From positions 1,500,949 through 1,540,234 of the forward strand of contig CP070638.1 in NCBI GenBank assembly GCA_020354025.1: a stretch of 39,286 nt of DNA. Direction: 5' to 3'. Both the position numbers and the translations under genes were made by a program. Source of the DNA: Fidelibacterota bacterium (GTDB lineage: Bacteria > Fidelibacterota > Marinisomatia > SCGC-AAA003-L08 > TS1B11). The notes beneath the pieces are model-generated. The model was not told the origin of the DNA. It saw only the letters and a program-made list of their open reading frames with translations, and did not search any database. Positions within the stretch are counted from its first letter, which is position 1. Each line of letters starts with the position of its first letter. Of the stretch, positions 1,915-9,477 are shown one piece after another.

Positions 1915-2622
1915 ATGAAAACGAAATCCCTATCTGGGAGCTTAATCAAGATAGTATTAATGGGCCTTCTCGTCCCTGGATTTGCCATCGGTCAGTATTG
2001 GGATGATGACGGTAATGACATCTATAACACGAATAGCGGTAACGTAGGTATCGGAACGACGAGTCCTGATGAAAAATTAGAAGTCACTGCTGGAAATATT
2101 AAATTAGATTGGCTGAACAGTAAATTTATCTTCGGGGACGGCAATTCTGGTCAGACTCAAAGAAGAGTTTGGGCAATTAAGGGGACGACCTACGGTTCAA
2201 ATTCTATCTTAGATTTTTTAGTTTCGACAACTCCTGGAGGAAGCCCAACCACTTCAATAATTAGTTTCAGGAATGACGGCAACGTCGGTATCGGGACGAC
2301 CAGCCCGCAGTCTAAGCTGTCCGTGAACGGCACCATTACCGCCAAAGAAGTGGAGGTGACATCAACCGGCTGGCCCGACCACGTCTTTGCCGACACCTAC
2401 CGGCTCAGGCCCCTCGCTGAGGTGGAAACCTACATCAAGGCCAATCGGCACCTGCCGGATGTCCCCTCCGCCGCCGAGGTTGAGGAGGAGGGTGTTGCTT
2501 TGGGCAAAATGCAGGCCACCCTCCTGCAGAAGGTCGAGGAGCTGACACTGTACGTGATCGACCTAAATAAAGAGAACGAGGCGCTGAAGAAGCGGGTGGC
2601 GAGCCTGGAACGGGAGCAGTAA
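1915..2622 (+). CDS. Secreted tail-fibre-like surface protein with C-terminal coiled coil
   Basis: A protein of 235 residues. I chose the ATG at 1915 because AGGGGG lies 7 nt upstream and a clean signal peptide follows (MKTKS, then hydrophobic residues 9-25, cleavage near IGQ). An in-frame ATG farther upstream would bury this signal. Two GNVGIGTTSP motifs (about 42-51 and 122-131), each followed by a KLxV strand, are typical of fibre and adhesin-like proteins of Bacteroidetes and relatives. The C-terminal third (DHVFADTYRL...LPEVE-type...NRHLPDVPS) resembles the region before the intramolecular chaperone of endosialidase-like fibres. It ends in a heptad-like Leu/Glu coiled coil (about 195-235), suggesting trimerisation. 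It is the first gene of a five-gene exported-protein operon; the next ATG is 1 nt after its stop. The first part is AT-rich and the last part GC-rich. Confidence 0.7.
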   Translation: MKTKSLSGSLIKIVLMGLLVPGFAIGQYWDDDGNDIYNTNSGNVGIGTTSPDEKLEVTAGNIKLDWLNSKFIFGDGNSGQTQRRVWAIKGTTYGSNSILDFLVSTTPGGSPTTSIISFRNDGNVGIGTTSPQSKLSVNGTITAKEVEVTSTGWPDHVFADTYRLRPLAEVETYIKANRHLPDVPSAAEVEEEGVALGKMQATLLQKVEELTLYVIDLNKENEALKKRVASLEREQ

Positions 2623-2623
2623 G

Positions 2624-3202
2624 ATGGGACGCATTGGAGCTTATGCCTGTGCTATAGGGCTGCTGCTGACGATACTGCCGGGCTTGCAGGCCCAATCCGG
2701 TACAAGACAGATCCCTCCGCCCCGCTACCTGACCGACGAGGAGGCCATCCGTATCCTGCTCCACAACATCCGGGAGGGCATCCGGCGGCAGGACCTCCTC
2801 CTGATCATCGACGGCTTTGCCAGCGAGGTCGAGATTGGCGACAGCACTACCGTCACCCTAGCCCAGGTGCGGGATAGCCTGCGGACGGCCTTTGCCGGGG
2901 CCGAGGCCCGGCGGGAAGACCCCCGTTTCCAGGCGCTGACCCCTCCCGGCGTTGAGCTAACCAGTACCTGGGATTTCGGCCTGCAGATCGACAGCGTGCG
3001 CTTCCTTGATGACCGGACCGCCGTGGCTGAGACCCAGGTCTATTTCGGCGCCGCTGAGCAGGACACCACCGCCGGCTGGCAGTTCGGCCGGAAGCGCCGG
3101 GAGACCATCCACTTTGAGAAGGTCAGCGGGGAGTGGCGGGTGAAAAGCATTGATGAATTGTTAAGAATATATTCTTTATATAGATCTAGCGGGGAAAAAT
3201 AG
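2624..3202 (+). CDS. Small exported protein, possibly NTF2-like
   Basis: A protein of 192 residues with a clear signal peptide (hydrophobic residues 5-21, cleavage after LQAQ or similar). The mature part begins with a helix (LTDEEAIRILLHNIREGIRRQD). It then has DLLLIIDGFASEV, a middle segment with alternating strands, and a final strand pattern RETIHFEKVSGEWRVKSI. Helix, 'xGF' turn, and a last strand with a W-R-V/I-x-x-I pattern are what NTF2/SnoaL-like folds look like, so this is a fold guess and not a function. Spacing to the neighbours is 1 nt on both sides, implying translational coupling. Base composition shifts to AT-rich in its last 60 nt. Confidence 0.55.
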   Translation: MGRIGAYACAIGLLLTILPGLQAQSGTRQIPPPRYLTDEEAIRILLHNIREGIRRQDLLLIIDGFASEVEIGDSTTVTLAQVRDSLRTAFAGAEARREDPRFQALTPPGVELTSTWDFGLQIDSVRFLDDRTAVAETQVYFGAAEQDTTAGWQFGRKRRETIHFEKVSGEWRVKSIDELLRIYSLYRSSGEK

Positions 3203-3203
3203 A

Positions 3204-4397
3204 ATGTTTTCTCAAAAATCAGCAGACACTAAAGGCAGAGATTGGTTGAAATCAAATACCAAAAAGTTTTACCTGTATCAATTGCTTAACCTGCTTCTTA
3301 TGCTTGGGATAATGCTCGTCAGCCACAAATGCTATCCCGAAGCGTGGTATGAACCGGATGGCTCTCCAGATTCTAGTGGTGTGGGAAGCATGACTATTTC
3401 TATTATCGACGCTCCCTCTTCATATCAGGCCAATGGCACCCAGACAAGCTATTTTGAGGTTTCTCTGCAATATGATATTGATCCAGAAGCATACCCGGGA
3501 CACAGCTGGCTCCGTCTATTGATATCTGATTATGATGAAGTAACTATAGCAAGCTCGAACTGGAGGCAAACGCTCCCCGGCGAAAACCTGCAGGATACGA
3601 TACGCTGGGGAGGCGACTGGCGGCTTGGCTCAGGTAGCTGGTACAACCTTAAAGCCGAAGTATTTAACCTGATCGGAACCAGCAAGAACAGCGCTACTTC
3701 ATATAATCGGCAGATCTCGCTTTATCCAACCACAATTCAGCTGACCGATAGATATATCGAGTATACGGGCAGCTATGATGCACCCCTGTGGGAGAAGGCC
3801 GAGTTGGAGGGGAATGGCCTGTCCCTTATAAGACAATCCTTCAACCTGGCCGGAATAAGATTAAATCTAAATTACGAAAGTGATAATTCCGACAGCGTTT
3901 ACTTTGACTTGGACTACCCCTGGGAAATAATTAGCTACCTACATTATAATAAGTATACGCAGGATCAATACCATTTAGCTGCAGCAAAAGGCATATATAA
4001 AACTTCCGACGGCGGCTCCATTGAAAATTTAGGAAATACAGCCGGAGTCACATATATTGAACAAGGCGAATATAATACCACCGGAAGCATTGTGGGATAC
4101 AGAAACTGCGTGGAATATCCTTTCCCTTCCTCTCTAAACATAGCGGTTTCTGATACAACCAGGATGACCCCGTTTAATATGATGAACGCAGTCATAGTCC
4201 ATGAGCTTGGGCACCAGGTTGGATGGGGGGATGTTAACGAACATAAGGGCAGCGGGTACACCAGGGAAAATAGTTATTGCATTATGTGGGCCGAAAAATC
4301 GGGCAACTACGATCCTACTGTTCTTCCAAGTAATATAACCATACCCAATCCGCATTTCTGTGCTGAACATTTAGATACCCTGTCACTGAGTCAATAA
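3204..4397 (+). CDS. Exported metzincin-type zinc metalloprotease (putative)
   Basis: A protein of 397 residues with a long polar N-terminus, then a hydrophobic segment (about 24-41) that acts as signal or anchor. Residues 60-180 look like a beta-rich, possibly Ig-like domain. The C-terminal part has VHELGHQVGWGD: His333, Glu334, His337, Gly340 and Asp343 fit HExxHxxGxx(H/D). Asp as third ligand is known in snapalysin-like metzincins. A Met-turn candidate SYCIMW (358-362) and a later FCAEH (386-389) complete the active-site layout. Nothing longer is recognisable, so the substrate is unknown. It may process its operon partners or cell-surface targets. The gene is visibly AT-richer than gene 2624-3202. 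It starts 1 nt after the previous stop. Confidence 0.65.
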   Translation: MFSQKSADTKGRDWLKSNTKKFYLYQLLNLLLMLGIMLVSHKCYPEAWYEPDGSPDSSGVGSMTISIIDAPSSYQANGTQTSYFEVSLQYDIDPEAYPGHSWLRLLISDYDEVTIASSNWRQTLPGENLQDTIRWGGDWRLGSGSWYNLKAEVFNLIGTSKNSATSYNRQISLYPTTIQLTDRYIEYTGSYDAPLWEKAELEGNGLSLIRQSFNLAGIRLNLNYESDNSDSVYFDLDYPWEIISYLHYNKYTQDQYHLAAAKGIYKTSDGGSIENLGNTAGVTYIEQGEYNTTGSIVGYRNCVEYPFPSSLNIAVSDTTRMTPFNMMNAVIVHELGHQVGWGDVNEHKGSGYTRENSYCIMWAEKSGNYDPTVLPSNITIPNPHFCAEHLDTLSLSQ

Positions 4398-4408
4398 GGA
4401 AATCAAAC

Positions 4409-5305
4409 ATGAACTGGAAATACCTATGGTCGTTTTTATGGCTGCTGGGCCTCCAGGTTGCCTACCCGCAAGGGCTGGATGTAACCATTGTTTTGGAGAA
4501 GTCCTCCTACCTGGTGGGTGAAGAGATATGGATGGATATCATCTGGCAGAATAATTCACCTGATACCCTATCCACCGCCAATTTTGCGTGGAATGAAGAT
4601 CTTTATATAATCGATTCGGAGGGAAAGCGGCATTTGCGTACGGGCATGTTTGTTGATTTAAGAGGACTATGGGTGCCCGATTTGCCCCCCGGGGCTACTG
4701 TAGTACATACCCTTGAATGTGCGGTAAATATGGGAGATACAAATCCAAACTATCGCCTTTCTCACCTGCCGGCTAGCAGTTACCAGATTTACATAAAGGG
4801 CGAACTGACTAAGGGCTACCAATATCCGGATTGGTTTAAAAAAATACCCTACAAATCAAACACAATCAACTTGGTCATAAATGAGCCTGTGGGAGATGAA
4901 AGGATCGTATGGGGCCTGCTTAATCAAGCCGAGGATTATATATTCGCTCAGAAAAACAAGCCTGAGGCAGACAAGCTTTATGAAACGATAATCAGTACCT
5001 ATCCCAACAGCGCCTATATCGAGAGAACGTGGCAAAAGTACGCCTCGCTTTTTAAGTACTCCGGGAGTATTGAGCAAAGGGAACAATCTGCGGTAAGACT
5101 GAAGGAATTTATAGACCGATTTCCTGATTCGATGGGTGTATCCCGTAGAGTGATCCATTTATATATGCATTCTCGTGTTAGTCCGGAACAGAAGCTCCAG
5201 CTGATGAATGAAATTTCCACGGCTCACCCCGGCACCCGGGCCGCGGCCGCGGCCAAAAGACGGTTGGATGAACTCCAAGCTAAAGCAAGCAGGGATAAAA
5301 AATGA
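4409..5305 (+). CDS. Exported protein with N-terminal Ig-like and C-terminal TPR-like regions
   Basis: A protein of 298 residues. The signal peptide is in residues 1-21 (MNWKYLWSFLWLLGLQVAYPQG). Residues about 23-160 form a beta-sandwich-like segment (VTIVLEKSSYLVGEEIWMDIIWQN...LPPGATVV...), similar in style to bacterial proteinase-inhibitor-like or Ig-like modules. Residues about 165-298 are helical with TPR/Sel1-like spacing (AEDYIFAQKNKPEADKLYE, TYPNSAYIE, RFPDSMG, AHPGTRAAAAAKRRL). This is a likely protein-interaction scaffold. It starts 11 nt after the metalloprotease stop, and its own stop overlaps the next ATG (ATGA). The pairing of an inhibitor-like module with a protease gene is suggestive but unproven. 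Confidence 0.55.
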   Translation: MNWKYLWSFLWLLGLQVAYPQGLDVTIVLEKSSYLVGEEIWMDIIWQNNSPDTLSTANFAWNEDLYIIDSEGKRHLRTGMFVDLRGLWVPDLPPGATVVHTLECAVNMGDTNPNYRLSHLPASSYQIYIKGELTKGYQYPDWFKKIPYKSNTINLVINEPVGDERIVWGLLNQAEDYIFAQKNKPEADKLYETIISTYPNSAYIERTWQKYASLFKYSGSIEQREQSAVRLKEFIDRFPDSMGVSRRVIHLYMHSRVSPEQKLQLMNEISTAHPGTRAAAAAKRRLDELQAKASRDKK

Positions 5306-7203
5306 GTAGGTTAAGTATTTTTACAGCTGTCGCTGCGGCTTCTATTGCGATATACCCGGTGGCTCTTTTACCGCAGAGTGCCTCCATGCTCAAGACCTTT
5401 CCTTTCTACGGGAGCCACTATATCCTTGATAAAGAGCTGGTTCAAGACAAGTACGGCGATGATGTCAACATGTTTGAATACCCCAAAGACTGCGCTATTG
5501 TTTATGTTAGTGAATCTACCTTTCTGGCCTTTATCATTGATCCGGCCTGGAATAGATTAATCTATGGTGAATGGACTAATGAGTGGGTAAAGCCGTATGG
5601 CTGGTATGGGTACACAGCCGATGGCACAGGCTGGAACCATCCCCGGAGGGTGGTAACCGACGGCCTGGGAAACGTCTATGTAGCCGATACCTACAACGGC
5701 CGAGTTGTCAGCCTGGAATACGATGCCACCGAAGAGGAAATAGATCCTGGCTCCTTTACCTCACTCGGTGCCAGCGTCCTTGAGCTGCCCTGGGACGTAG
5801 ACGTGGACGACCGCGGCGATACCAGCGTCAGTAACGATCACCTGTGGGTTATTGACAAGTCGCTGAACAGGGTACTGAAGTTCAACCTCAGCGGTCAGCA
5901 CCTGCTGTCTATCACATCTCTGCACAATCCTTCAACGAGTGCAACCTACAGCGACCTGAGCGGGCTATCCGGAGTGGCCGTGCGGAAAAGCGCCGCCAAC
6001 GGCAACAATTCCACTTCAAACTATCGTCTATACCTTATCGACTGGAAACAGCGCAAGCTCTTCCTGGTAGGCGCCGATAACGTATCCGGCGGCCAGGCCA
6101 CTATCTACCGGGAGACGGACACCTTTCCCGATAATTATGTTCTTACCGACATTGAGTCTGACTTCTTCGGCGACGTGTGGATCGTGAACGAGACCGGTAA
6201 CGCCATCGAGAAGTACACCTGGGACCTGAAGTACCTGGACAGCCAGAGCGGCCTTAACCGGCCCACCAGCGTGGCCAGCTCCCGGCGGCACGACCGGTAC
6301 ATGGCCATTACCGAGCGCTGGACCGAGACTACCGGCAGCCGGATCTATACCCACGGGGCCCATATCAACGACCTGTATATCAACCCCGGCAAAACCATGA
6401 CATATTTCAATTTCAAGACCACCAACTACGGTCGGGTGGCGGCCAAGGTGTATCAGGGCACGACCCTGATCAGTCACTATTACGTTGGCTTTGATGATTA
6501 TATCCGCCCCAGCGGGCAGCAAAGCGGTTATGTGTATCAACAATCGCCTGAAGAGGAATACACGTTAAAGGTCTTTGCCTACGTCTATAACGATACCAGC
6601 AAATACCATGTTGTTGAGCAGAACTTTCAGTTCCTCCCTGAATGGCCTGCCAACTTGACGCTGTCGGATATGACCATATGGGGCGAGCAATGGTATACGG
6701 TAACCAACTCTATAACAGCCGGTCCCAATTTCACTGTTGAGGATGGGGCCGACGTACATATGAGGGCAAAAAATACCATCACGCTGGTACCCGGATTCAC
6801 TGCGAAGGCTGGCAGCGAATTCAATGCGTACATTTACACTGGTTCGATACCCAAGGCGATTCCAGCAGATACATTGGTTGCAAGTGCCCCGGATAGCGGT
6901 CGTAATGATACTGAACTAACTCCAAGGAAGTACACTCTTTCCCATAACTACCCCAATCCTTTCAATCCCATCACTACCATTCGCTTCGGCTTGCCCGAGC
7001 CGGCCCACACCCGGCTTGTGGTCTATGACCTGCTGGGGCGGCAGGTAATTCGGCTGGTGGACCAGCACCTGGAGCCGGGCTACCATGCGGTGGTATGGAA
7101 TGGGAGGATCGCCGCTGGCCGCGAGGTCCCCTCCGGAATCTACATCGCCCGTATCGTGACCCCCAAGTACGTCAAAAGCATCAAGATGCTGCTGTTAAAA
7201 TAA
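5302..7203 (+). CDS. Secreted NHL beta-propeller protein with type IX-like C-terminal sorting domain
   Basis: A protein of 633 residues with a signal peptide at 1-27. Residues about 55-350 contain NHL/6-bladed propeller blades, e.g. WNHPRRVVTDGLGNVYVADT (111-130) followed by YNGRVVSLEY, and HLWVIDKSLNRVLKFNLSG. Residues about 440-510 include a segment like those called coat-hanger stacks (VHMRAKNTITLVPGFTAKAG). The last 94 residues (from about 540) are a por/type IX secretion sorting domain: NYPNPFNP at 549-556, then YDLLGRQV, then PSGIYIARI, ending in Lys. In FCB bacteria this targets proteins through the type IX system to the surface. It overlaps the previous gene by 4 nt (ATGA). Its last five codons lie inside the first unit of a 44-bp tandem repeat. 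Confidence 0.75.
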   Translation: MSRLSIFTAVAAASIAIYPVALLPQSASMLKTFPFYGSHYILDKELVQDKYGDDVNMFEYPKDCAIVYVSESTFLAFIIDPAWNRLIYGEWTNEWVKPYGWYGYTADGTGWNHPRRVVTDGLGNVYVADTYNGRVVSLEYDATEEEIDPGSFTSLGASVLELPWDVDVDDRGDTSVSNDHLWVIDKSLNRVLKFNLSGQHLLSITSLHNPSTSATYSDLSGLSGVAVRKSAANGNNSTSNYRLYLIDWKQRKLFLVGADNVSGGQATIYRETDTFPDNYVLTDIESDFFGDVWIVNETGNAIEKYTWDLKYLDSQSGLNRPTSVASSRRHDRYMAITERWTETTGSRIYTHGAHINDLYINPGKTMTYFNFKTTNYGRVAAKVYQGTTLISHYYVGFDDYIRPSGQQSGYVYQQSPEEEYTLKVFAYVYNDTSKYHVVEQNFQFLPEWPANLTLSDMTIWGEQWYTVTNSITAGPNFTVEDGADVHMRAKNTITLVPGFTAKAGSEFNAYIYTGSIPKAIPADTLVASAPDSGRNDTELTPRKYTLSHNYPNPFNPITTIRFGLPEPAHTRLVVYDLLGRQVIRLVDQHLEPGYHAVVWNGRIAAGREVPSGIYIARIVTPKYVKSIKMLLLK

Positions 7204-7364
7204 TCGTTAGAATAGTCCCGCAGGATGCGGGGCTGCTGTTAAAATAATCGTTAGAATAGTCTCGCAGGATGCGGGGCTGCTGTTAAAATAATCGTTAGAA
7301 TAGTCCCGCAGGATGCGGGGCTGCTGTTAAAATAATCGTTAGAATAGTCCCGCAGGATGCGGGG
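7189..7364 (+). repeat. 44-bp tandem repeat, four copies, spanning a stop codon
   Basis: Units start at 7189, 7233, 7277 and 7321, with a decayed fifth from 7365. Each unit holds CTGCTGTTAAAATAA, which in the first unit encodes the last residues and stop of the propeller protein. It is followed by a hairpin AGTCCCGC-AGGAT-GCGGGGCT (8 bp with one G-U). The only difference seen between copies is C to T in unit 2 (AGTCTCGC), which keeps pairing through a second G-U. There are no spacers, so this is not CRISPR. Confidence 0.9.
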
Positions 7365-7390
7365 CTGCTATTGAAATAGTATCAGAGTAG

Positions 7391-7444
7391 TCCCGCCATC
7401 AGTCCCGCTCTTAGTCCCGCTGAAAGCGGGGACAACGGCGGGGA
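7391..7444. terminator. Nested hairpin, possible terminator or decayed repeat copy
   Basis: The outer stem is TCCCGCC (7391-7397) with GGCGGGGA (7437-7444). The inner stem is GTCCCGCT (7414-7421) with AGCGGGGAC (7425-7433, one extra G). A third AGTCCCGC half-site lies between (7401-7408). These half-sites match the stem of the upstream 44-bp unit, so this segment looks like a rearranged array. No U-run follows. Confidence 0.4.
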
Positions 7445-7460: not shown

Positions 7461-7532
7461 CCGCATCTCGCGCATCTCGCGCATCTCGCGCATCTCGCGC
7501 ACCTCGCGCACCTCGCGCACCTCGCGCACCAG
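7461..7532 (+). repeat. 9-bp tandem repeat, eight units in two variants
   Basis: Units read CCGCATCTC then GCGCATCTC x3 (7461-7496), GCGCACCTC x3 (7497-7523), and a partial GCGCACCAG (7524-7532). One T-to-C change separates the two blocks, showing successive local duplications by slippage. The period is a multiple of three, so a reading frame stays open without meaning. Confidence 0.9.
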
Positions 7533-7600
7533 GCGAACGACAGGCCGCCACTTATAGCTTATATTCGGGCGTTATGCTGACGCTCTCGCCATATCGTTCC

Positions 7601-7654
7601 ATGAGCACCGCTCATGGCATGGGCACCGCTCATGGCATGGGCAGCGCCCATGAC
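7601..7654. repeat. 18-bp palindromic tandem repeat, three units with covarying stems
   Basis: Unit 1 (7601-7618) has stem ATGAGC/GCTCAT. Unit 2 (7619-7636) has ATGGGC/GCTCAT, which keeps a G-U pair in RNA. Unit 3 (7637-7654) has ATGGGC/GCCCAT. Loops are ACC, ACC and AGC. Unit 1 to unit 3 is a full compensatory change through a wobble intermediate. Confidence 0.8.
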
Positions 7655-7832: not shown

Positions 7833-9020
7833 TCATCGGTTCAGCATCTCCAGGATAGGCTTGAAGTGGGCCAGGTTGGTCTTGTGGGAGTCGTAGGAGA
7901 AGACGCAGACGGCCTCGAAGCCATAGAGCCGCGCCACGCGGATCTTCTCCGCCGTCGCCTGAGCATCCTGGTTATAGGTGGCTACTCCCATGATCACCCG
8001 GCTGCGGAAGCGCTCCGAGAGCGAGTCGGACACGATAGTCACGCTCTGCATGTACTCGTCGAGCTCCGGGGTATAGTTCATCAGGAGGGCGTAATCGAGG
8101 ATCCCGTCCCTGAGCCACTGCAGCCAGTCCTGGTAATACTTGTGGCGTGCCACCCTGGCGTTGGGCTTGACCGCCGCCGTAAGCATCACGTCCTTCCCGC
8201 TGAGGGTTATCACCGCGTGCATGGCCGTCATCAGGTCGGTGATTTTCCGGCGGCGATAGTCGTTCCAGACTTCCAGCTCCGGGCTGATGCCCTGCTCATT
8301 CCCGTTCCCCGTTGACAGGTTCTGCGCATTGTTGATGTCCCTGGGATCGAAACCGTGCCTTTTGCGGAACACTCCCAGCCCCTCCTCGTTGTAGCCATGG
8401 TCCAGGTCCGGGAAGCGGCAGTAGTCCAGGTGAAGCCCGTCGACACTGTAATTCAGGAGGATCTCCGTGAACACCGTTTGCAGGTAGCTGTTGACTTCCG
8501 GGTGTACCGGTGAGAGGAATATCCCCTCAAAGGAGTTGTTCCGTGGGGCGCTCAGATCGATGTCCCTGTGGGCGTTGCCGCCGGCGTCCACCTCCAGCCA
8601 CTCGGGATGCATCCGGTAAGCATGGCTGCCGGTCTCGGGCGGCGTGCGCGCGGACCAGAGCAGATAGGTAGTCACCCAGGCATGGACATTCAGCCCCAAC
8701 TCATGCCCCCGGCTCACCGCATAGCCCAGTGGATCAAATCGGCTGTCCCTGATGAGTGGGCTCTTGGGAACCAGCAGCGAGTTATAGTAGGCGTCGCCTC
8801 GCCCCCGCACCTGTACGAAAACGTGATTGAAGCCGCTCTCCTGGGCAAAGGTGAGGGCGGCGTCGATCTCCTCGCGGTCCACCATGCTGTCCCGCACGAT
8901 CCACAGGCCTCTGATACGCAGAGGCTCCAGCTCCTCCCCGCTGATAACTGTTATGGCAATAAAAAAGGCAGCCATAAGGGCTACCTTCCAGGACGTGGGA
9001 GTCGGGTTTTTCAAAAGCAC
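7833..9020 (-). CDS. Exported glycosyl hydrolase-like protein, GHL10/DUF187 family
   Basis: About 395 residues from the GTG at 9020. TTG at 9014 and ATG at 8975 are alternatives. A longer frame from 9119 would overlap rplQ by 68 nt and put 45 non-signal residues before the signal peptide, so I reject it. The signal peptide is VALMAAFFIAITVIS. The domain is the TIM-barrel-like GHL10 fold: RGLWIVRDSMVDREEID at the start, FNHVFVQVRGRGDAYY, LGLNVHAWVTTYLLW, HPEWL, SPVHPEVNSYL, and VDGLHLDYCRFP in the barrel centre. The family includes peptidoglycan-active DigH; the exact substrate here is unknown. It lies 31 nt after the rplQ stop with no clear terminator between, so some read-through from the ribosomal operon is likely. 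Confidence 0.75.
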   Translation of the reverse strand: MLLKNPTPTSWKVALMAAFFIAITVISGEELEPLRIRGLWIVRDSMVDREEIDAALTFAQESGFNHVFVQVRGRGDAYYNSLLVPKSPLIRDSRFDPLGYAVSRGHELGLNVHAWVTTYLLWSARTPPETGSHAYRMHPEWLEVDAGGNAHRDIDLSAPRNNSFEGIFLSPVHPEVNSYLQTVFTEILLNYSVDGLHLDYCRFPDLDHGYNEEGLGVFRKRHGFDPRDINNAQNLSTGNGNEQGISPELEVWNDYRRRKITDLMTAMHAVITLSGKDVMLTAAVKPNARVARHKYYQDWLQWLRDGILDYALLMNYTPELDEYMQSVTIVSDSLSERFRSRVIMGVATYNQDAQATAEKIRVARLYGFEAVCVFSYDSHKTNLAHFKPILEMLNR

Positions 9021-9051
9021 CCCGTCGGTTGAGTGCTGATCGAGAATCCCA

Positions 9052-9477
9052 TCATTTCTTGGATTTTTTCCCGGCTTTGGTACCCTCTTCAGTGGATTCG
9101 GCCGGGGCTGGGGCGACATCCACTAGCTCCACCATGGAAACCAGGGCTCGGTCATTGGTTCGGTTCCCCAGCTTGATGATACGGGTATAGCCGCCGGGAC
9201 GGTCAGCCATCTGCGGCGCAATCTCGTTGAAGAGGATAGCAGTCACCAGCTGCCCCTGTTTCCCTGGCAGGGCCTTGAGCACCTGACGCCGGGCGTGAAG
9301 GGTGCCCTGCTTCGCAAATGTGATCAGGGGTTCCACGAAAGTGCGCAACTCCTTGGCCTTGGCATCGGTAGTCTGGATACGCTTGTGAATAATCAGGGAC
9401 GACGCCAGATTGCGCATAAGCGCCTTCCGGTGGCTGGCGGTACGGTTCAGCTTTCGACCCCTCTTCAGATGTCGCAT
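9052..9477 (-). CDS. rplQ: 50S ribosomal protein L17
   Basis: A protein of 141 residues. It begins MRHLKRGRKLNRTASHRKAL, the family hallmark, and continues with the conserved LITFAKQGTLHARRQVL and GGYTRIIKLGNRTNDRA blocks. L17 sits near the peptide exit tunnel of the large subunit. The last 20 residues form an acidic then Lys-rich tail (ESTEEGTKAGKKSKK) beyond the core. It is the last ribosomal gene of the alpha segment, 16 nt after rpoA. Confidence 0.97.
   Translation of the reverse strand: MRHLKRGRKLNRTASHRKALMRNLASSLIIHKRIQTTDAKAKELRTFVEPLITFAKQGTLHARRQVLKALPGKQGQLVTAILFNEIAPQMADRPGGYTRIIKLGNRTNDRALVSMVELVDVAPAPAESTEEGTKAGKKSKK

Follow-up and report, generated by a model that had tools for sequence, protein, structure and literature searches.

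Layout of the locus

The window, that is, the whole 39,286-nucleotide stretch of DNA analysed, belongs to a single-contig genome of 3.4 Mb from the phylum Candidatus Neomarinimicrobiota. Positions 1915-7203 hold five plus-strand open reading frames, at 1915-2622, 2624-3202, 3204-4397, 4409-5305 and 5302-7203. The junctions measure 1, 1 and 11 nt, followed by a 4-nt overlap, exactly as an earlier note on this DNA had described them. No intrinsic terminator-like site was found on the plus strand within the operon, and promoter-like sites are not in excess there (6 found vs 7.5 expected). The operon is flanked by a DUF6807 gene (449-1564) and a GHL10 gene (7833-9119) on the other strand; the rest of the window is filled by an adjoining ribosomal protein cluster, and the neighbouring genes are cellular. 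Just upstream of the window (L034), several sulfatase-like genes with Tat-like N-termini (by eye) lie on the minus strand beside the DUF6807 gene.

Signal peptides had been claimed for all five products. Read by eye, the N-termini of genes 1, 2, 4 and 5 are indeed ordinary Sec signal peptides, with Gln at, or close to, the probable cleavage site, while that of gene 3 is less clear. Most exported proteins of four other loci (L030-L033) likewise have Gln at the probable signal peptidase I site or close to it. This 'Q-rule' was described for Bacteroidetes and stated not to be valid across the FCB group, in a paper that does not mention Marinimicrobia (PMC5837995).

Gene 1 encodes a fibre protein with two parts of different composition. 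The variable head (1915-2277, plus strand) comprises a signal peptide (..GFAIG/QYWDD) and a VGIGTTSP repeat, and has AT-rich third codon positions (GC3 of 0.25-0.55 in 20-codon bins). The constant tail (2278-2622, plus strand) extends from GNVGIGTTSPQSKL to HLPDVPSAAEVEEEGVALGKMQATLLQKVEELTLYVI, contains a coiled coil and has a GC3 of 0.70-0.93. The fibre-like VGIGT repeats match PHROG tail fibre 18345 (E 1.5e-10) which, with the coiled coil, bears out the earlier description as a tail-fibre-like coiled-coil protein. A phage origin of the operon was considered and rejected, the tail-fibre matches covering just the short VGIGT repeats. None of the phage records searched for the NHL protein of gene 5 holds one, and the viral contigs searched gave weak generic matches, with no close relatives of that protein.

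The constant part of gene 2 (2624-3160, plus strand) encodes an exported, tentatively NTF2-like protein up to GEWRVKS, with GC3 mostly at 0.70-0.95. In the remaining tail (3161-3202, plus strand) GC3 drops to 0.17 and the similarity of relatives stops, making this a likely exchange joint. The protein has no Pfam match up to E 10 and no NCBIfam family; its best PDB profile match is to the NTF2-fold protein 3h51, weakly (E 0.99), and a low-confidence predicted model (pLDDT 42) has a topology compatible with NTF2. The NTF2-like assignment made earlier is thus possible on topology and finds no family match. Across the phylum, gene 2 has matches in 4 of 245 genomes. In three of them it lies next to the NHL gene; in the fourth (G003) it is reduced to a stub that contains a stop codon, and no other cassette gene adjoins it.

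Gene 3 (3204-4397, plus strand) encodes a zinc peptidase with a complete HExxHxxGxxD motif (HELGHQVGWGD; H333-E334..H337..G340..D343, at 4200-4232) and a Met-turn CIM (4278-4286). Among the Pfam and NCBIfam peptidase models none scores above its cut-off, M6 (TIGR03296) reaching 18.4 of 110.8 bits (E 0.0016) and Reprolysin_3 14.1 of 22.4. Relatives were found neither in 100 related genomes nor in genome contigs, the latter in a scan reaching close relatives, and the class of the protein therefore rests on the motif: the metzincin call agrees with motif and Met-turn, while the M6 model stays below cut-off. The structure model has a pLDDT of 34. A long charged N-region is followed by a hydrophobic stretch and then Cys43, and the product is possibly a lipoprotein or membrane-anchored.

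The product of gene 4 (4409-5305, plus strand) is exported. Its TPR part, at about 4916-5011, passes the Pfam cut-off for TPR_6 and gives a profile match to CpoB/YbgF structures (E 3-5e-5), so that the TPR half of the earlier Ig/TPR description holds; the N-terminal region is putatively beta/Ig-like.

Gene 5 (5302-7203, plus strand) encodes an NHL protein whose first about 110 residues are less conserved. As previously proposed, it combines an NHL repeat (about 5635-5709) with a type IX sorting domain (about 6949-7188); a 3-coathanger domain lies between them (about 6706-6834). The sorting domain matches TIGR04183 (type A) with 34.8 bits against a cut-off of 23, and genes 1-4 have no match to this model. 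Searched against the host genome, gene 5 returns 75 matches, nearly all (about 70) to the sorting domain, and a 2183-aa frame with SprA_N (PF14349) above cut-off provides a type IX translocon gene. Across the GTDB collection, strong relatives of the long NHL region are confined to two further genomes, G009 (TS1B10-1, same family as the window genome) and G066 (NIOZ-UU60, same class), and the genomes with such relatives are those in which gene 2 relatives lie beside the NHL gene.

A tandem array of a 44-bp unit (7188-7396; 4.8 copies, 94% identical) begins within the last codons of gene 5, and its copies repeat those codons and the stop (CTGTTAAAATAA). Two further arrays lie beyond it, one of 7.4 copies of a 9-bp unit (7462-7528) and one of 2.9 copies of an 18-bp unit (7600-7652). 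At several places in the host genome, short stretches outside long frames encode only the last 26-48 residues of the sorting domain (near G000:C1 1368178, which is L030:4179-4262, and near 1395718, 967505, 114060 and 1756394), as if such DNA were spread in pieces.

Related cassettes and sister operons

Five cassettes from three genomes were compared, three of them from G009. Their common frame consists of a fibre, an NTF2-like protein and an NHL propeller bearing a type IX sorting domain; one zinc peptidase and its matching partner occupy a slot between the NTF2 and NHL genes. In G009:C8, unit 1 comprises a fibre, NTF2, a lipoprotein-like HExxH zincin, an Ig/TPR protein (25% identity to gene 4) and an NHL fragment. 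Unit 2 has an NTF2 remnant, an M15 peptidase, an FG-GAP propeller and a complete NHL protein with 54% identity to gene 5. The G009:C16 cassette starts with a fibre gene that contains an in-frame TAG; NTF2, an M74-like peptidase, a PD40 propeller and an NHL fragment come after it, and downstream of the cassette lie a META-domain lipoprotein and a trypsin-like protein that carries a sorting domain. The G066 cassette runs from NTF2, with no fibre gene before it, through M15 and FG-GAP to NHL at the contig end. In two of the three G009 fibre genes (L069/L085 and L074), the conserved tail contains one in-frame TAG, which may reflect decay, sequencing error or readthrough.

The slot is occupied by HExxH zincins in two cassettes, M15 in two and an M74-like peptidase in one, the M15_3 and M74 assignments of the relatives passing Pfam cut-offs. 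The likeness between the window zincin and that of G009:C8 is confined to the HExxH motif region, and the two would be either very far apart or of separate origin. In all five cassettes the peptidase has, by eye, a Cys at the end of a hydrophobic stretch, which suggests lipid anchoring. Partner type tracks peptidase type, zincin occurring with Ig/TPR twice and M15 with FG-GAP twice; between cassettes, the M15 pair shares 43% and the FG-GAP pair 24% identity. Where the peptidase changes, the Ig/TPR partner is replaced by an FG-GAP or PD40 propeller, which does not fit the scaffold role earlier suggested for the TPR protein.

A second genus shows the same gene order, again with tight or overlapping junctions, at a protein identity of about 54%, and hence the arrangement is more than chance. 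Adjacency and export are common near type IX genes, which would suit chance neighbours under one promoter; given this recurrence, we regard such an explanation as highly improbable. The recurrence of the frame genes in tight order, the SprA gene in the genome and the type IX tail on the last gene support the earlier proposal of a co-expressed surface operon. The frame genes stay together in order, as does the zincin/TPR pair in one relative, so the homologues are not always apart; the five do not form a fixed set, and in L078 the Ig/TPR protein is found with no peptidase nearby.

The fibre tail reaches beyond these cassettes. In the window genome, a sister operon (L030:7939-11748) combines a fibre tail (72% identical) with a lipoprotein and an M4 thermolysin-like protease bearing coathanger and sorting domains. 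Further sister operons occur in G009 and G004, some of them broken, with tandem truncated copies; one has a trypsin-like protease, its lipoprotein being a META-domain protein. In the sister operons the type IX tail and coathanger sit on the M4 or trypsin-like protease, in contrast to the window cassette, where the sorting domain is on the propeller protein. Gene 1 and the sister-operon tails share 61-80% identity over aligned columns. Counting fibre loci of the family with readable downstream genes, which leaves out G005 and G006 as these stop at contig ends, eight of nine are followed by a peptidase gene or fragment; downstream of the ninth (G007) lie a lipoprotein and a short fragment.

These loci bear directly on the model put forward in the earlier note, in which the protease matures the fibre while the propeller and TPR proteins act as scaffold. 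Beyond the fact that the genes share an operon, little speaks for it: the nearly constant fibre tail precedes zincin, M74-like, M4 and trypsin-like peptidases alike, and fibre maturation is accordingly considered very unlikely. At the level of sequence, it is the fibre tail, the NTF2-like protein and the NHL protein that are the constant parts, the peptidase and TPR protein being interchangeable cargo.

Two other loci were observed. In the window genome, a 751-aa fibre-like protein precedes an exported protein of 183 aa that has a type IX tail (L031:4444-7348). In the distant G230 (L124, G230:C52, 1195-9507), the same fibre tail is followed by a 155-aa sorting-domain protein and then a 2176-aa protein with a SpvB/Rhs-like N-terminus (by eye), and thus by different cargo.

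Probable exchange joints

The cassettes G009:C8 and C16 share an 884-bp block of 86% DNA identity that comprises just the fibre tail and the NTF2 gene. At the 5' edge, high similarity starts at GGCAACGT(C/A)GGCATAGGGAC, corresponding to GNVGIGT in the fibre, although a laxer search extends the block into the fibre head at about 80%. The 3' edge lies at GGAGAATGGCG (GEWR; GGEWR), about 50 nt before the NTF2 stop codon. A chimeric frame in G009:C8 (L068:9228-9701) joins NHL residues about 34-112 to NTF2 residues 132-185, and is most plausibly a scar left by deletion between two tandem units; G009:C8 was therefore counted as two cassettes. The NTF2 remnant of this chimera loses similarity at the same GGEWR point as C8 and C16. 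Beyond it the three NTF2 3' ends are unrelated and lead into three unrelated peptidases.

Measured in 20-codon bins, the GC3 of the window jumps from 0.25 to 0.90 at 2275, within the fibre gene, and drops from 0.70 to 0.17 at 3164, at the NTF2 end. Both steps coincide in place with the joints of the relatives, although each is a single event and could be due in part to local selection. That joints occur at the same two places in the G009 blocks and in the GC3 profile of the window is the strongest evidence for an exchange of cargo on a fixed frame.

The joints also help in weighing a simpler possibility, namely an ordinary exoenzyme operon of a heterotroph, in which type IX proteins and peptidases come together through normal gene turnover, with neither dedicated exchange nor a common complex. 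The about 70 sorting-domain matches in the host genome agree with this, as do the M4 and trypsin-like enzymes of the sister operons, typical of protein digestion, and the many Por-tail proteins of SAR406 genomes (PMC5596340). However, gene turnover does not readily account for the sharp joints that fall at identical positions in three cassettes, for the pairing of peptidase and partner types, or for frame NTF2 and NHL genes found in these operons only. We consider it the less probable explanation, albeit one to be taken seriously.

Proposed role and relation to known systems

We propose, with a probability of roughly one half, that the operon is a modular, type IX-linked surface operon with a constant frame, an exchangeable peptidase/partner slot and a variable fibre head. 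The proposal builds on what can be read from the sequences, namely the modular arrangement, the peptidase/partner pairing, the joints, the sorting domain and the translocon. On the sequence evidence, cargo has been replaced at two joints, one within the fibre gene (GNVGIGT) and one close to the NTF2 stop codon (GGEWR), and deletions have fused tandem units. The type IX system would bring the NHL protein to the cell surface, where it would serve as a common platform. The peptidase would be the active part, probably lipid-anchored and working in or outside the outer membrane, with its partner presumably acting as a cognate helper or inhibitor that chaperones, restrains or aims its peptidase type. 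The fibre head may provide attachment.

M15 and M74 peptidases cut peptidoglycan, and M4, trypsin-like and most metzincin peptidases cut proteins; hence, the common theme is hydrolysis of outside polymers. The likely job of the operon would be attack on an external polymer, i.e. protein for the window zincin and peptidoglycan cross-bridges for the M15/M74 versions. We infer external proteolysis or cell-wall attack, and nutrition and antagonism fit alike.

The nearest known idea is that of polymorphic toxins, including the TANFOR toxins of Bacteroidetes, which like this operon combine a constant export part with an exchangeable active part (PMC3482391; PMC7073777). Furthermore, T9SS-secreted proteins are enriched near TANFOR genes and peptidases occur among the toxins (PMC3482391; PMC7073777). 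The operon differs in using separate genes, polymorphic toxins being C-terminal domains of one large protein, and in having neither a TANFOR or Rhs domain nor a recognised immunity gene.

The operon might also be a conflict system of this kind, with the peptidase as antibacterial effector, the fibre head finding the target, and the partner or NTF2 protein protecting the producer. The exchange of active and attachment parts on a constant frame, the tandem decaying copies, the peptidoglycan-cutting M15 and M74 families and the SpvB/Rhs-like cargo in G230 are all in keeping with such a role. In contrast, searches of the operon against Pfam, NCBIfam, PHROGs and PADLOC matched neither a C-terminally fused toxin domain nor a known toxin or immunity family, and propellers or TPR proteins would be unusual for immunity; we hold the conflict role to be rather unlikely. 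Equally speculative is the idea of a hitherto unknown type of polymorphic weapon or predation device at the cell surface, with peptidase, partner and fibre head swapped as modules at fixed joints in cell-wall- and protein-cutting versions. A defence system was rejected, there being no PADLOC match.

Type IX-secreted metallopeptidases (NCBIfam T9SSA_dep_M36 and T9SSA_dep_M6i) resemble the modular operon in their type A sorting domain, coathanger and a nearby exported zinc peptidase. They differ from the window cassette in that its sorting domain is borne by the propeller protein and not by the peptidase. FCB fibre proteins with VGIGT repeats and an HLPxxPS..LLxKxEELTLY tail share the repeats, conserved tail and coiled coil of gene 1; among three genomes scanned outside the phylum, Flavobacterium bizetiae carries the same tail. 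Unlike gene 1, those fibres do not precede a peptidase, but are lone small fibres or the ends of 1700-1800-residue proteins beside other exported proteins.

In the open-licence papers searched we found no description of the operon, of coathanger domains, or of Neomarinimicrobiota with the phrase type IX secretion. A modular, apparently recombining exported-peptidase operon, sampled here in three genomes, is thus undescribed in that literature. If the proposed model is true, active parts would be swapped on an unchanging export frame not just as C-terminal toxin cassettes, for which this is known, but also as whole genes of a type IX-linked operon, and this in a phylum that has hardly any laboratory members. 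The roles of the NTF2-like and NHL proteins become testable because both never change, and the joints give a genome-mining route to new peptidases beside the fibre tail and NTF2 gene.
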